Origin: a virus
Strand: one strand, 5' to 3'
IMG/VR virus record: IMGVR_UViG_3300025086_000203
Location: 1-26,118 of that record
Length of the DNA stretch: 26,118 nt
The notes beneath the pieces are model-generated. The model made no database searches. It was not told the origin of the DNA and worked only from the letters and a program-made list of their open reading frames with translations. A program made the translations under genes and the position numbers. Below are positions 17,582 through 23,880 of the stretch, in pieces; positions within the stretch are counted from its first letter, which is position 1, and every line of letters starts with the position of its first letter.

Positions 17582-17857
17582 TCACCACTTCACCTTGTTT
17601 GCCCAGAAAGCCGCAGACATTTTGCCCTTAGCAATATTTTTAGCGTGCCTAGCCTTAAATGATTTGGCACGCTTAGTCATTTTTTTGTCGCCGGTTTTAC
17701 CTTGTTGGCCAAACCTAATAGTCTTTACTTTGTCACCTTCTTTAGCCACCACCACATGCGATTTTTTCGGGTGGCTAGGCGTGCGTTTAGGCTTGTTGAA
17801 ACCTGACACGCCGGCACGTGCTAAACGTGGGTCTTTTTTACTTTTTCTTTCCGCCAC
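17582..17857 (-). CDS. Basic conserved marine-phage protein (SGFNKPKRTPSHP family)
   Basis: A 91-aa protein that is strongly basic. The sequence (KSKKDPRLARAGVSGFNKPKRTPSHPKKSHVVVAKEGDKVKTIRFGQQGKTGDKKMTKRAKSFKARHAKNIAKGKMSAAFWANKVKW) carries well conserved segments: GVSGFNKPKRTPSHPxKSHVVVAKEGDKVKTIRFGQQG and SFKARHAKNIAKGKMSAAxWAxKVKW. I recognise these from small proteins encoded near portals in many aquatic phages. The start is GTG at 17857, immediately after the TAA of the 57-aa gene and in the same frame. The beta core (HVVVAKEGDKVKTIRFG) and basic ends fit a nucleic-acid or capsid-interior protein, but no function is known to me. Confidence 0.7.
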   Translation of the reverse strand: MAERKSKKDPRLARAGVSGFNKPKRTPSHPKKSHVVVAKEGDKVKTIRFGQQGKTGDKKMTKRAKSFKARHAKNIAKGKMSAAFWANKVKW

Positions 17858-18031
17858 TTACTTTTTCTTTTTTTTGGCGGTCTTCGCGCTTTGCTTAAAA
17901 GCTTTTGCAGTTGGAGCCCCTTTAGAACCTACTTTACGCATTTTTTCTGGCGTTTTTCCTGCCGCTTTTTGGCGTTTGATTCTTTTACGTTTAGCGTGAA
18001 TGTTGGCATATAAGCCTTTTTTTGCTGCCAT
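17858..18031 (-). CDS. Lys-rich small protein (MAAKKGLYANIHAKRKRI family)
   Basis: A 57-aa protein starting at ATG 18031, two bases after the stop of the 36-aa gene. It reads MAAKKGLYANIHAKRKRIKR, then QKAAGKTPEKMRKVGSKGAP and TAKAFKQSAKTAKKKKK. About a third of residues are Lys and only one is acidic. The opening (KKGLYANIxAKRKRI...G.....MRKxGSKGAPTAKAF) is a small family I know from many marine phages in this same position. It probably binds nucleic acid or acidic capsid surfaces, but this is inference. The ribosome site is A/G-rich and weak (AAGAAGAAGAAA). An eight-A run precedes the end, and the TAA stop is followed in frame by the next gene's GTG. Confidence 0.7.
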   Translation of the reverse strand: MAAKKGLYANIHAKRKRIKRQKAAGKTPEKMRKVGSKGAPTAKAFKQSAKTAKKKKK

Positions 18032-18033
18032 AT

Positions 18034-18144
18034 CTATTTCTTCTTCTTCTTAACCATTTTCTTGCCAGACTTCTTTGCAGCTTTTTTTGCGGCTGCCATT
18101 CCCTTCTTGCTGTACGAATATTTCTTACCACCGACCATAGGCAT
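18034..18144 (-). CDS. Very small Lys-rich protein (MPMVGGKKYSYSKKGM family)
   Basis: A 36-aa protein from ATG 18144, chosen because GAGGAG lies a few bases before it; the longer frame from 18231 would add residues with no family resemblance. The sequence MPMVGGKKYSYSKKGMAAAK continues as KAAKKSGKKMVKKKKK. Fifteen of 36 residues are Lys and none is acidic. The opening (MPxVGGKKxxYxKKGMAxAK) recurs in small genes of many marine phages at the head of the structural operon. It is the first gene after the leftward terminator/promoter at about 18175-18225. Role unknown; a histone-like or DNA-condensing peptide packed in the head is possible. Confidence 0.7.
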   Translation of the reverse strand: MPMVGGKKYSYSKKGMAAAKKAAKKSGKKMVKKKKK

Positions 18145-18174: not shown

Positions 18175-18212
18175 ATCATACAGGATTATAAGAAAAAAGA
18201 AAGCCCGACATA
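18175..18212 (-). promoter_or_regulatory. Candidate leftward promoter of the structural operon
   Basis: On the minus strand a perfect TATAAT (18190-18185) and a second TATGAT (18180-18175) lie just after the terminator's T tract and about 40 bases before the first Lys-rich gene. The -35 match is poor (TTATGT at 17 bp for TATAAT). The site is plausible because a promoter is needed directly after a terminator, but a single-box match in AT-rich DNA is weak evidence. Confidence 0.35.
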
Positions 18213-18225
18213 AATTTAAGGGCTT
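18191..18225 (-). terminator. Intrinsic terminator for leftward transcription
   Basis: On the minus strand AAGCCC (18225-18220), a 13-base loop and GGGCTT (18206-18201) form a six-pair stem followed by TCTTTTTTCT. This is a standard intrinsic terminator in the leftward direction only, since no T run follows on the plus strand. It would stop transcripts that run from terL through the plus-strand island. Confidence 0.7.
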
Positions 18226-18232
18226 GTGCATA

Positions 18233-18251
18233 TGTTAACACTGTGTTAACA
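18233..18251. promoter_or_regulatory. Two TGTTAACA palindromes, probable operator
   Basis: TGTTAACA, three bases, TGTTAACA. Each half is itself a perfect 8-bp palindrome. The repeats overlap the -35 box and spacer of the plus-strand promoter, so a bound dimer would block RNA polymerase. Confidence 0.5.
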
Positions 18252-18263
18252 TGGGTATATAAA
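18235..18263 (+). promoter_or_regulatory. Sigma70-like promoter of the plus-strand island
   Basis: TTAACA (18235-18240), a 17-bp spacer and TATAAA (18258-18263) give five of six matches at both boxes with ideal spacing. Transcription would start near 18270 and reach ATG 18295 with a short leader that contains ACGGAGGTATCC. Confidence 0.65.
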
Positions 18264-18294
18264 TAGAATCACTCGCAACTAACGGAGGTATCCT

Positions 18295-18702
18295 ATGCGA
18301 CTATACACTAACAACCAAGGCGTCTGGGCAGGCACTCAGGCTGACGCTAAAAAACTTTTTAAAGTTCCTAACACCCCGACAGGCAACTTTGTCGAGGTTG
18401 ACGTACCAACAACCAAAGCAGAACTCATGGAGTTCTTAAACACTCACAGATGTCGCCCACAGAGCGGCCAAGACCTTGAGCGCGACAGCGTCAAGTTCAA
18501 CGACCCGAGCATTGCTCCGGCTTCCCCTTCTCAAGCACCACGCCCAGAGCGTCACGGTCAGTCAGCCAGTGCGTATAAGCCTGCCGGCGAACTCAACCGG
18601 TACGACGTGCAGGACGTCGTTCTTAACTGCGACAAGCGTTACTTAGGCGGCGCCTTGTCTGCAATCGTCACTCGCATCTATGACATAGATGACGATATTT
18701 AA
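18295..18702 (+). CDS. Plus-strand island gene 1: MRLY family protein of unknown function
   Basis: A 135-aa protein encoded opposite to the rest of the window, with an optimal ribosome site (GGAGGTATCCT). The N-terminal 50 residues (MRLYTNNQGVWAGTQADAKKLF...FVEVDVPTTKAELMEFLNTH) form a recognisable small module: a beta hairpin, then VxVPTxKxxLxxFLNxx. I have met this module in many aquatic phage genomes without a known role. The middle (about 55-95) is Pro/Ser/Gln-rich and likely disordered. The C-terminal 40 residues (AGELNRYDVQDVVLNCDKRYLGGALSAIVTRIYDIDDDI) form a helical segment with an acidic end. Its own promoter and operator-like site suggest timing that differs from the surrounding late genes. 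Confidence 0.75.
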   Translation: MRLYTNNQGVWAGTQADAKKLFKVPNTPTGNFVEVDVPTTKAELMEFLNTHRCRPQSGQDLERDSVKFNDPSIAPASPSQAPRPERHGQSASAYKPAGELNRYDVQDVVLNCDKRYLGGALSAIVTRIYDIDDDI

Positions 18703-18708
18703 TTTAAC

Positions 18709-18724
18709 GGGGGCTTCGGCCCCC
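18709..18724 (+). other. UUCG tetraloop hairpin between the two island genes
   Basis: GGGGGC, TTCG, GCCCCC: a perfect six-pair stem closed by the extra-stable C(UUCG)G tetraloop. No T tract follows, so it is not a standard terminator. It may stabilise the upstream mRNA, mark a processing point, or set the ratio of the two proteins. It sits seven bases after the first stop and seven bases before the second ribosome site. Confidence 0.6.
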
Positions 18725-18741
18725 ACTTACGGAGGTATCCA

Positions 18742-19536
18742 ATGAAAAACGTTAACATCAAACCAGTCAACCACGGCGAAACTAAAGCCGACAGAAACCG
18801 CTACTGCGGCCCGTCGGTCATTAGCGCCGTAACAGGCATGACAACCGGAGAAGCAGCTCGCCTGCTTCGCCACGTCGGTGGTCGCAAGTCTATCAAAGGC
18901 TCATCTGTTAGAGAAGTCACTGACGCTCTACAGATGTGCAACATCAAATCTACCTATAAAAACTTTGGCTTAAAGCTAGGCCGAAGCAAAGGCCCGACAT
19001 TAGCAGCTTGGCTTAGACATACTGTCAAAGAGCGCACTGCTAAACGTGTCTTTCTTATCGTCGCAGGTCATCACTGGCAGCTTGTCCAAGGCAGACGTTA
19101 CGTGTGCGGCATTGTTGGCGAACCAGTATCTATACGCGACAAAAAAGTTAAAAGACGAGCGCGTGTATCTAACGTATATGAGCTGTCACTTTTTGGCATC
19201 GCTGAAGCCGGTATAAAAATCGAAATACCTGCCGAGGCACGTAAGCCAAAGCGTGACGCAGTCGAAGCATCTGATTACTCAAAGGCAAAGCGCCTAGCTA
19301 AAAAGATGGAGATCGAGATCGATCTAGATCAGATCGGCCCGTCACGTAAGTACGACGTGCAGAAATGGATTAGCTACGATGACGTCGATGAGAACAACGA
19401 GCATCTCGACTTTGCCGACATGGGCGTAATCGATGGCCACTGCTCATACGACTGGTGGGAGCTGCACGGTAAGCTCGAAGAGATCCAAAGGTATCGTGAC
19501 GAGCACGGCTACCGGCGGTACAAAGAAGCCGCCTAA
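18742..19536 (+). CDS. Plus-strand island gene 2: C39/papain-like cysteine-peptidase-like protein
   Basis: A 264-aa protein with the ribosome site GGAGGTATCCA. Residues 20-45 read RYCGPSVISAVTGMTTGEAARLLRHV, which is the opening of C39-like and related papain-fold proteins: Cys22 at the start of helix 1 (xCGPxAIxxxTGxxxxEA). Residues 103-125 read VFLIVAGHHWQLVQGRRYVCG, with His110/His111 at the place of the catalytic His in GHxVxVxxG. A clear third residue (Asp or Asn after the second strand) is not obvious: the following segment is IVGEPVSIRDKK. The remaining C-terminal part is highly charged (RKPKRDAVEASDYSKAKRLAKKMEIEIDLDQ) and ends YDDVDENNEHLDFADMGVIDGHC..., unlike any domain I know. Possible roles include cleavage or deamidation of a host or phage protein. 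The stop overlaps that of terL. Confidence 0.6.
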   Translation: MKNVNIKPVNHGETKADRNRYCGPSVISAVTGMTTGEAARLLRHVGGRKSIKGSSVREVTDALQMCNIKSTYKNFGLKLGRSKGPTLAAWLRHTVKERTAKRVFLIVAGHHWQLVQGRRYVCGIVGEPVSIRDKKVKRRARVSNVYELSLFGIAEAGIKIEIPAEARKPKRDAVEASDYSKAKRLAKKMEIEIDLDQIGPSRKYDVQKWISYDDVDENNEHLDFADMGVIDGHCSYDWWELHGKLEEIQRYRDEHGYRRYKEAA

Positions 19537-20948
19537 ACAACGCCCCTGATACTACGTTTCAACGGCCGGCTCCATGAGCCGGTCGAACTCGTTCCGGATG
19601 CCAGTGTCGTGTGGTCATTTGCCAGTGACAAACAAACAGCGTCAGCTCTATCCGGAGACACAACGCCCCTCTTCTTCATAGCCTCCTTGCTCTCAACTTG
19701 GATCTTACCGGCCGAGGTAAAGTGATAACGAGGCGCAGCAAGCTCCGCATAAAGCGCATCATCACGCGGCAACCGGACGTCCATACCCTCAAGCCACGCC
19801 TTACACCTAAACCAGATCTCAGCGCGCAGGTTTAAATACGTGTCCTTCGACATAGCACGCTCCGACACGTTTAAGCCACGCGCAGGTAAACCTACCTCAC
19901 GCAATCGATCTAGCACTCCGGCGCCGAACCCGTTGCTGTCCACAATGATCTCTGTCGGCCGTTTAGACGGCGGCAAAATATCGTACTCTGCCTTAACAGC
20001 TCCGGAGAGCTGCATCAGATCGAGGTTACGCCACACAGTAAGCGGATGAATTACCGGACCCTGACGCTTGCATAGCACACTGCTATCGTTGCCTTGCCGT
20101 GCGACGTCCAACCCCCAGACGTATGCAGCATCTTCGTGCACCTTAATATCGCTTGCCATCGCGTGCTCAATCAGAGCTACCGGTATCACGGTATCTTCCT
20201 CGGACGGTGGAAAGTTGCCAAGAACACGCACATGGTACGCAGGGCTGTCCTCTCCATAGCGCCTTTTCATGTCGTCGATGTAGTCGTCGGAAACTCGAGG
20301 AGAGCTCACGCAGGAAACGTGCATCGTATGCCAGTCATCGCGCAGCCGGTTATGCGTGTCATAAAAGAAACCCGTATTTCGCGTCGGGTTGCCGGTAAGC
20401 ACAGTGGTCGCATTGTGTCCGGACATCGATCCACTGGCGGCCTCAAAAACGGCATTTGGGACGCCGCTCGCCTCGTCGGCGATCAATAATACGTCTGAAC
20501 TATGCACGCCGGCAAGCGCCTCCGGCTGCTCAGCTCTAGACGTGCGAACCGATATAAACGCGCTCTCAGGGCTCTTCTTCAGCTCGATACGATCAGACTT
20601 AACCTCAAGCAGCTTGTCAAAGGGTGGCCTTAGACGCTTAGCTACATTTTTCATTTCCGCAAAACAGGCGTCAAAGAGCTGCGCCGAGGTAGGAGCTGTA
20701 ACCACGGTTTTACTTGGAACACGCATTAAGACGTGCCAGACGGCAGCCATAGCCACGGCAGTTGATTTTCCTACACCGTGTCCAGATCGGACAGTTATAC
20801 GTCGTCGCTCTGGATCAGCCACCGACATAAGCAGCTCACTTTGCCACTGATCCGGCTCGATGCCAATTACCTCGGAGGCAAAGGCTACTGGGTCGCTCTG
20901 ATAGCGTCGCATAAGTTGCAGGAAAGGATTACTGGTCGGCTTGTTCAT
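19533..20948 (-). CDS. terL: Terminase large subunit (packaging ATPase/nuclease)
   Basis: A 471-aa protein with GGAG seven bases before ATG. Motor motifs: Walker A GHGVGKST (residues 56-63), Walker B VLLIADEA with Asp158 and catalytic Glu159, and motif III LTGNP (184-188). The C-terminal RNase H-like nuclease has GLDVARQGND (Asp281), EIIVDSNGFG (Asp337) and SPDRADAV (Asp433, Asp436). All key residues are present, so the enzyme looks intact. It pumps DNA into the prohead and cuts concatemers, working with the small terminase upstream and the portal. The GHGVGKS-type Walker A is common in terminases paired with Sf6-like small subunits. The gene converges on the plus-strand island: TAG of terL and TAA of the island gene share the bases CTAA. 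Confidence 0.93.
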   Translation of the reverse strand: MNKPTSNPFLQLMRRYQSDPVAFASEVIGIEPDQWQSELLMSVADPERRRITVRSGHGVGKSTAVAMAAVWHVLMRVPSKTVVTAPTSAQLFDACFAEMKNVAKRLRPPFDKLLEVKSDRIELKKSPESAFISVRTSRAEQPEALAGVHSSDVLLIADEASGVPNAVFEAASGSMSGHNATTVLTGNPTRNTGFFYDTHNRLRDDWHTMHVSCVSSPRVSDDYIDDMKRRYGEDSPAYHVRVLGNFPPSEEDTVIPVALIEHAMASDIKVHEDAAYVWGLDVARQGNDSSVLCKRQGPVIHPLTVWRNLDLMQLSGAVKAEYDILPPSKRPTEIIVDSNGFGAGVLDRLREVGLPARGLNVSERAMSKDTYLNLRAEIWFRCKAWLEGMDVRLPRDDALYAELAAPRYHFTSAGKIQVESKEAMKKRGVVSPDRADAVCLSLANDHTTLASGTSSTGSWSRPLKRSIRGVV

Positions 20949-21065
20949 TTTAGGGCTCCATTTCTTAAAATTTTTTTTCGATGGTGCGTGAAGAGGTCGT
21001 CGATTTTTGCACCGGTCAGCGCAGAATCAGGGGGGGGCTTTTTTGCATATAACCGTATAAGTTCG

Positions 21066-21081
21066 CATAATACTTATTATG
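21066..21081. repeat. Inverted repeat CATAATA-CT-TATTATG
   Basis: Perfect seven-base arms separated by CT, in the leader of terL. It overlaps by three bases with an ATGTTAACA motif shared with the island operator. It looks like a protein-binding site rather than a terminator. Confidence 0.45.
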
Positions 21082-21093
21082 TTAACAAAACGG

Positions 21094-21107
21094 TACTATA
21101 TATAGTA
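21094..21107. repeat. 14-bp perfect palindrome TACTATATATAGTA
   Basis: A perfect AT-rich palindrome in the terL leader, next to a leftward AAAAAAGGAG tract (21120-21111). The TATATATA centre could serve as a -10 region, an operator or a strand-opening element. Confidence 0.45.
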
Positions 21108-21232
21108 TGCTCCTTTTTTATATGACTAAATGTTGATCGGATACAAGATATAGTGGTTTATTGACAGAAATGCTGCAATGCAGTATTCGCGCGCGCGCCT
21201 GCGCGTCGGTGTCTCGATGCATGAAATCGTAC

Positions 21233-22425: not shown

Positions 22426-22549
22426 CCGCAGTTAACATTGTTACGTCCGAACTCCCTGCCGCAGTTACGTATATATACGTAACAACTGCGGCGGAAGGTT
22501 TTCTCCGCACTTCTCGCAGTCTTCCGCACTTCAACTGCGGTAACTGCGG
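22426..22549. repeat. Iteron-like CCGCAGTT repeats with a long palindrome
   Basis: CCGCAGTT or its complement AACTGCGG occurs five times: 22426-22433, 22459-22466, 22484-22491, 22533-22540 and 22542-22549. The second and third flank an 18-bp perfect palindrome, TTACGTATATATACGTAA (22465-22482), forming an extended 35-base imperfect hairpin (22458-22492, one arm has an extra GTT). A second element, TCCGCACTTC, occurs twice, 19 bases apart start to start (22504 and 22523). This density of short repeats in a 147-bp gap suggests a protein-binding cluster such as a replication origin or a multi-site operator. Confidence 0.6.
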
Positions 22550-22800: not shown

Positions 22801-23050
22801 TGGCTTTCCCCTCCTGTAGCAGCTTAAACTGCCTGATGCGCCACGCTACGACCTCAAGCTCGTCGGCCATGTGGTCAGTTATAATACCGCTAAATAGCGG
22901 CTTACGGTCCCTAGCAGTAAGCGCCTCTCCGGCTATTAATGCAAATGTGTGATCTTTTTTAGATAATTCAAACGTCATGTGAGCGACCTCGTAATGCTCA
23001 CGCTTAGTCTCAGGGTGTCTGCGCTTTGCTTTGACGCTATGGGTGCTCAT
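22781..23050 (-). CDS. 89-aa small protein, unknown
   Basis: I start this at ATG 23050 (MSTHSVKAKRRHPETKREHYEVAHM), because ATGA overlaps the PAPS-family gene's stop; a longer frame from 23080 would overlap it by about 34 bases. The body reads TFELSKKDHTFALIAGEALTARDRKPLFSGIITDHMADELEVVAWRIRQFKLLQEGKANDKAKE: a basic N-terminus, a short strand region and a C-terminal helix. I do not recognise a family. It is coupled on both sides, so it is very likely real and co-expressed with the replication genes. Confidence 0.6.
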   Translation of the reverse strand: MSTHSVKAKRRHPETKREHYEVAHMTFELSKKDHTFALIAGEALTARDRKPLFSGIITDHMADELEVVAWRIRQFKLLQEGKANDKAKE

Positions 23051-23880
23051 CCAGTACACTCCCCGTCGTCTGCTTGGCAAAAGAAATCTTCCATGTCATA
23101 GATCCAATCGCCTTGTCTTTCTAAATCTGATTTCATCTTTTCTAAATTCCTATCAAGGCGAAACGGAAATCCTATTTCTTTTTCAATGTTAATCCACCAT
23201 GATGCTCTTTCTGGGTAGTGTCGCAGCATATAAGCCGTGGTGTCCTCCGATTTAAGAAAACAAAAGTCACAATTCCCACTTGGACATTTACCTCTATGAT
23301 TTGGTAATTTTAAATCAAAGTTAAAAGCCTGTAACTGTTTGCCCCAAAACTCAGCTATATCAAATTTGCTAACTTTTGCGGTATTTAATGGATACCAGTA
23401 ATGCCATTTATCATTACTTGTTTCTTTGCATCTATGACGCTCATCAAACCTTATACCAACAGCTTGTGTCCAATTTTGCCATTTCTGATATTTGGTAATA
23501 AATCTTTTTATTGTCAGCATTTTAAGTTCTGTCGTACAAAATCTTTTCATTGGCTGCGGCATAAACTTTTTAAAATGTAATAACTCAGTAAATGGCTCTC
23601 CATTTATCGATGCTGTATCTCTTGTAACTATTCTATATGTAGGACTATTATTAATTCTTGTATATTCTAGCCATGTGATATGCACACGCCAACGCTCGCT
23701 GCACTCTTGCACAAAGTCTAATGTCTCAGGCATCTCACGCCCAGTATTCGCAAAGATAACCTTACAGCGATCTGGCAAATCTCCGTTAGCCTCAAGTATT
23801 TGATGCAACATATATGCGCTAGTTCTACCTCCGCTTAAACTAATTTGTACGTTTCCCTCTGGAAGTTTATATGCGCTCAC
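23047..23880 (-). CDS. PAPS-reductase/DndC-like ATP-pyrophosphatase family protein
   Basis: A 277-aa protein. The start is GTG 23880 in a GTGA overlap with the primase stop. The N-terminus reads GNVQISLSGGRTSAYMLHQIL; SGGRTS (residues 16-21) is the PP-loop (SGGxDS-type) that binds ATP. Then come VIFANTGREMPETLDFVQECSERW (strand-helix typical of PAPS reductases), KRFCTTELKMLTIKRFI with Cys115, VGIRFDERHR and GKCPSGNCDFCFLKS with Cys199, Cys204 and Cys207. Cys115 plus this cluster could hold a 4Fe-4S centre. Relatives include sulfate-assimilation PAPS reductases, DNA phosphorothioation DndC and many phage homologues with unknown substrates. Sulfate reduction in a phage is less likely than a thiolation or nucleotide-modification role, but this is inference. 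Its coupling to the primase suggests DNA metabolism. Confidence 0.75.
   Translation of the reverse strand: MSAYKLPEGNVQISLSGGRTSAYMLHQILEANGDLPDRCKVIFANTGREMPETLDFVQECSERWRVHITWLEYTRINNSPTYRIVTRDTASINGEPFTELLHFKKFMPQPMKRFCTTELKMLTIKRFITKYQKWQNWTQAVGIRFDERHRCKETSNDKWHYWYPLNTAKVSKFDIAEFWGKQLQAFNFDLKLPNHRGKCPSGNCDFCFLKSEDTTAYMLRHYPERASWWINIEKEIGFPFRLDRNLEKMKSDLERQGDWIYDMEDFFCQADDGECTG

Follow-up and report, generated by a model that had tools for sequence, protein, structure and literature searches.

A hypervariable antisense gene slot adjacent to terL in uncultivated phages has a putative CtrA-type promoter in common with the replication operon

The two rightward genes at positions 18295-19536 of a 26.1-kb linear virus record (IMG/VR IMGVR_UViG_3300025086_000203, positions 1 to 26,118; the full 26,118 nt are referred to here as the window) are likely to be the current cargo of a hypervariable antisense slot that has a CtrA-type promoter in common with the replication operon and is co-expressed with it early. 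In a group of uncultivated marine podovirus-like phages, the slot separates terL from the structural block and is oriented against both; it would be transcribed from its own copy of the replication-operon promoter. As that promoter has a full CtrA-type site, the cargo is probably turned on early, at the same time as the replication genes. This switch-on would follow the state of the host CtrA phosphorelay, with the surrounding late genes on another programme, and the cargo genes would be exchanged as units between fixed edges, namely the promoter, the terL stop and the UUCG-hairpin junctions. A literature search covering part of the literature found no earlier description of a terL-adjacent slot. 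CtrA control of phage genes is already known, and what is new here is the antisense exchangeable slot and the promoter that it has in common with the replication operon.

A reading made from the sequence alone had described a rightward two-gene island in an otherwise leftward window, converging on terL with overlapping stops. This arrangement was confirmed, as all other identified genes in the window, including those on both flanks, are on the minus strand, and the stops of gene 2 and terL overlap in the 4 bases CTAA (Table 1). On the other side, the genes for small lysine-rich proteins form the start of a leftward structural block that includes portal, scaffold and capsid genes. The GC content of gene 1 (0.53) and gene 2 (0.50) is inside the range of the neighbouring genes, and a foreign origin based on GC content was rejected.

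The same reading had attributed matched ribosome sites, a promoter of its own, operator-like repeats and an internal hairpin to the island, and each has a counterpart here. The same 12-mer, ACGGAGGTATCC, stands before each of the two genes, with no further copy in the window and none across 100 shuffles. The promoter-like element before gene 1, TTAACA and TATAAA separated by 17 nt, is conserved in relatives with differing cargo; a stock sigma-70 scan of the window did not report it because the -10 rule of the scan needs a final T. The putative -35 is held within a perfect 21-bp palindrome (18232-18252) made up of two TGTTAACA units 11 bp apart, which shares the longest perfect arms in the window. 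Since approximately 1 in 6 Markov shuffles contains a 10-bp palindrome arm somewhere in the 26 kb, the strength of the palindrome was not accepted as evidence on its own, and the support for an operator comes instead from the position of the palindrome and from the conservation of its box in homologous slots. The hairpin between the two genes (-17.2 kcal/mol, z -2.0) recurs at the junctions of other cargo genes. The terminator-like hairpin for leftward transcripts is weak (-7.7 kcal/mol, z -1.8) and conserved only in part, and one of its stem arms is overlapped by the conserved CTTG of the promoter.

Table 1. Features of the slot and its edges in the window.
Feature	Position	Strand	Remarks
Genes for small lysine-rich proteins (phrog_7595, phrog_16028, phrog_33179)	17582-18144	-	Left edge of the slot
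Terminator-like hairpin and T-run for leftward transcripts	18192-18225	-	AAGCCC-13 nt-GGGCTT, TCTTTTTTC
Conserved CTTG block	18223-18226	+	Belongs to the extended promoter common with the replication operon; lies upstream of the CtrA-type box
GTTAAC-N5-GTTAAC box (= TTAA-N7-TTAA, CtrA-type full site)	18234-18250		Overlaps the putative -35; core of the 18232-18252 palindrome
Putative cargo promoter	18235-18263	+	TTAACA (18235-18240), 17-nt spacer, TATAAA (18258-18263); arrangement conserved in relatives
Ribosome-site block, gene 1	18282-18293	+	Identical to gene 2 block
Gene 1 (135 aa)	18295-18702	+	Conserved N-terminal domain of ~50 aa, exchangeable C-terminal part
Intercistronic hairpin GGGGGC-UUCG-GCCCCC	18709-18724	+	Cargo gene junction
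Ribosome-site block, gene 2	18729-18740	+	Identical to gene 1 block
Gene 2 (264 aa)	18742-19536	+	Predicted papain-like (C39-type) fold; invariant Cys22, His111, Cys122
terL	19533-20948	-	Fixed right edge of the slot; stop shares 4 bases (19533-19536) with gene 2 stop

A TerL search identified 80 viral relatives, and 42 non-redundant loci were used for the slot statistics. In most relatives the stretch between terL and the structural block carries genes opposite to terL, often with the same 4-base stop overlap, and the slot varies in length from approximately 0.2 to 3.2 kb. In total, 149 cargo ORFs, 147 of them from relatives and 2 from the window, form 48 protein families with 26 singletons, some of the small ones possibly spurious as ORF calling was mechanical. 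Recognisable cargo includes HNH endonucleases, a helix-turn-helix protein, a C5 cytosine DNA methyltransferase found in four contigs (L036, L040, L042 and L059) and another DNA methyltransferase (phrog_24333) in the L088 slot, which suggests that DNA-modification genes are among the cargo at this site. Contents differ even between loci whose TerL proteins are at least 97% identical: L026 carries both gene 1 and gene 2, L034 has a different gene 1, and L027, L028, L031 and L033 have unrelated slot genes. The comparison of synteny that had been proposed thus indicates that the site is nearly constant while its contents come and go, and no simple inversion of the whole region was seen among the TerL relatives. 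Three loci (L038, L085 and L098) have neither a good box nor clear counter-oriented cargo. The reason that the island genes run counter to the late region would be that they occupy a slot for swappable genes.

Like a moron or exchangeable accessory locus, the slot genes are present or absent between close relatives, and a conserved promoter-like element is retained with different cargo and would serve as their own promoter. The window scan listed no plus-strand terminator-like site after the cargo, so a terminator of its own, as expected of a moron, was not found. Seven copies of GGGCTTCGGCCC were found in 61 kb of slots and none in 350 kb outside them; the copies are typically between cargo genes in the context stop-(T)CAAC-hairpin-AC-ribosome site. 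In most slots the UUCG hairpin has no T-run and is therefore probably an RNA-processing or insulating element. It may also act as a seam for cargo exchange, in which case recombination would occur there.

Even where the cargo is quite different, the sequences before it align on GTTAAC-N5-GTTAAC. The exact box occurs 23 times in the 136 kb of slot sequence downstream of terL in the 42 loci, whereas the remaining 274 kb of these contigs has no copy, and no GTTAAC pairs were found at any other spacing from 0 to 15. Allowing up to 2 mismatches, 35 of the 42 slots have a box; among the 7 that do not, 2 are on contigs that break off inside the slot, before its entry is reached. The shorter form TTAA-N7-TTAA (18235-18249 in the window) is found at 24 sites in the 42 slots compared with 7 in the rest, and exact CtrA-type sites number only 1-4 per record of 32-39 kb and are mostly intergenic. 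Two layouts were distinguished. In layout A, which is that of the window, CTTG is ∼10 upstream of the box and TATA is at +22 to +24; in layout B, CTTG is ∼15-16 upstream and TATA is at +19. The -10 offset is different in approximately half of the slots, and some slots have no TATA box at all, so that the regulator, if it is CtrA, might repress in some slots. In the gap between terS and terL (20949-21232), the window also contains a G run (AGGGGGGGGCT), a CG-repeat stretch and a lone TGTTAACA at 21080 with CTATATATAG after it, which could be a degenerate form related to the cargo promoter.

The extended pattern CTTG-N7-GTTAAC-N5-GTTAAC-N5..7-TATA was found in 22 stretches of viral contigs. Seven are terL slots, 3 are at the other end of the early accessory region, and approximately 12 are at the head of the operon leading to the primase-helicase gene, an assignment seen in full in some stretches and made in others by the same neighbouring genes. 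The slot copy and the replication-operon copy are present together on one 35-kb contig (L208, L216) and likewise in G002, where the replication operon also encodes an exonuclease VIII-like protein. As this type of promoter heads the replication/recombination operon of relatives and not late genes, the slot genes are most simply read as early genes among late ones, which supports the earlier suggestion of separately timed expression. In the window phage the replication-operon copy would lie beyond the right end of the window, and we infer its presence there.

Further features were observed around the replication genes and the accessory regions. The window encodes a PAPS-reductase-domain protein (23047-23880) that adjoins the primase-helicase gene. 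A second accessory region in full-length relatives (9524-13349 in L187; 15528-20715 in L185/L186, G002) is bounded on either side by GTTAAC-pair boxes; its genes converge, and in G002 they include one that resembles an endolysin gene. The second longest perfect palindrome in the window (GTTACGTATATATACGTAAC, 22464-22483) separates small leftward genes. It is nested in a larger inverted repeat, GCCGCAGTTACG...CGTAACAACTGCGGC, close to several CTGCGG/CCGCA repeats, and this region could be an origin or an operator.

CtrA is a cell-cycle regulator in alphaproteobacteria with the consensus TTAA-N7-TTAA (PMC9437464), and the full site of Dinoroseobacter shibae CtrA is TTAAC-N5-GTTAAC (PMC7232146). 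The slot box is an exact match to this published roseobacter consensus, spacing included, and the island operator is probably not private but a CtrA site of the alphaproteobacterial type (PMC7232146, PMC9437464). CtrA binds such sites in alphaproteobacterial phages and activates or represses the genes behind them (EMSA, lacZ fusions; Mascolo et al. 2022, PMC9437464). In Caulobacter, single CtrA sites overlapping the -35 are the usual activating layout (PMC11264516), and since the candidate site in the window also overlaps the -35, the analogy suggests activation in the window phage.

The hosts are likely to be alphaproteobacterial. Gene 2 homologues were found in 9 phage records and all 9 infect Alphaproteobacteria. 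Among isolated phages whose host is named, the closest by TerL is Sinorhizobium phage phiM5 (49%), which has been placed near marine lineages assigned to alphaproteobacterial SAR116 (PMC10386132). TerL matches in MAGs are scattered, have conflicting labels and are probably misbinned, and host assignment by this route was dropped. The box, phiM5 and gene 2 lines of evidence agree in pointing to CtrA and Alphaproteobacteria, short of proof. It is also conceivable, though doubtful, that host CtrA is a single licensing switch, turning on both the replication operon and an antisense cargo whose transcript would run into terL and hold back packaging until the late programme.

The main rival to CtrA control accepts the slot and its early promoter but takes the GTTAAC pair as the operator of a phage-encoded regulator, with host CtrA uninvolved. 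Two tandem 8-bp palindromes one helical turn apart would suit a pair of dimers, and the half-site TGTTAACA is itself palindromic, so that a dimeric phage regulator could also bind. Such a regulator would fit the single layout that slot and replication-operon promoters share within a phage lineage, and some cargo families and early accessory genes of unknown function might encode it. However, the box has exactly the consensus that was published independently for the CtrA site of a roseobacter, a scan of 28 further proteins gave only one marginal HTH_38 match (E 0.007), and helix-turn-helix proteins are cargo in only a few slots. This explanation is therefore considered unlikely. A different role for the box, in which it mainly serves the divergent leftward structural operon as a CtrA-gated late switch (cf. 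lytic deferment) and the cargo promoter is a by-product, is more improbable again. The box does lie in a divergent gap, the sequence upstream of it is also conserved and CtrA-timed lysis has been proposed (PMC9437464), but copies of the extended promoter elsewhere head the replication operon, and in the window phage a terminator-like hairpin is just leftward of the box.

That the island is an ordinary moron, a single recent two-gene insertion with a private constitutive promoter and an orientation due to chance, is very unlikely, even though unrelated phages also have relatives of gene 2, each a single counter-oriented gene with another sequence upstream. The promoter stays conserved when the cargo is entirely different, genes in the slot are as a rule counter-oriented, and the GC content of both genes (0.53 and 0.50, as above) is within the range of their neighbours. 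As promoter and slot are common to dozens of relatives, this explanation was already disfavoured. The preferred reading remains an exchangeable antisense slot with a CtrA-type promoter in common with the replication operon.

A role of the current cargo in host takeover or regulation, which the sequence-only reading had given as an example, is speculative. In gene 1, the first 50 residues are conserved and the C-terminus changes. Searches of gene 1 and gene 2 against Pfam, PHROGs, NCBIfam and PADLOC returned only a sub-threshold match of gene 1 to DUF6021. The sequence-only reading had likened the gene 2 product to a cysteine peptidase, and the likeness is partly supported, by the predicted fold and two catalytic-type residues. 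The structural model (pLDDT 82) has C39 domains as its best Foldseek matches (PCAT1, PDB 8vp9 and 6mpz; probability 0.99-1.0), with E-values of only 3e-3 to 3e-2 and TM scores of 0.35 (query) and 0.59 (6mpz). Cys22, in a CG motif, and His111 are invariant in 18 sequences down to 42% identity, as is Cys122. The likeness does not extend to a Pfam match or to any other curated C39 profile (PHROG, NCBIfam, PADLOC), nor to an invariant Asp/Asn after His111 (residues 112 to 146), Asp133 being His in some members. A sequence profile search against the PDB gave only chance matches to designed proteins, and no gene 2 relative was found in bacterial genomes. Peptidase-like is a fair label for the predicted fold of gene 2, more so than for its function. 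The product is probably a papain-like thiol enzyme with a target in the host or the phage, the activity itself being a guess. Besides those in the slot, relatives of gene 2 are found alone and counter-oriented in other phages, and towards the end of a rightward operon in CRP-901-like phages, in many cases directly preceded by a homologue of gene 1.

If the preferred reading holds, CtrA control, so far described for a few phage isolates, would also apply to a group of uncultivated phages from aquatic habitats, and would be tied to the replication operon rather than to scattered genes of unknown function. The conserved box before swappable terL-adjacent genes provides a handle for harvesting early accessory genes from metagenomes, including nucleases, methyltransferases and possible anti-host proteins. 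A further question that becomes testable is whether phages in aquatic habitats sense the cell cycle or the motility state of the host before replicating.

Parts of the arrangement are known from other systems. In Roseobacter phage CRP-901, gp26 is homologous to gene 1 (N-terminus) and gp28 to gene 2. Their order is that of the window, and they are likewise on a rightward operon converging on leftward genes. However, this operon is a long one of small, helicase and nuclease genes, the two homologues come close to its end, and no GTTAAC box was found there. Sinorhizobium phage phiM5 has a related order of TerL, portal, scaffold and capsid genes (TerL 49% and portal 42% identity) but differs in having a forward-oriented putative peptidase gene directly after terL, and neither a counter-oriented slot nor an exact box was found in the 22 kb read. 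The Dinoroseobacter shibae CtrA site is a host site, whereas the window box has the same consensus and spacing in phage DNA. The phages phiCbK, Cp1R7A-A1 and vB_BsubS-Delta (PMC9437464) likewise have TTAA-N7-TTAA in intergenic promoter regions before small genes of unknown function, and in both cases relatives and gene-sharing partners infect Alphaproteobacteria. They belong to a different phage lineage and their sites crowd into terminal repeats or one gap region, whereas the group of the window phage has its few exact sites (1-4 per record) at fixed promoters, one at the antisense terL-adjacent slot and one at the replication operon.
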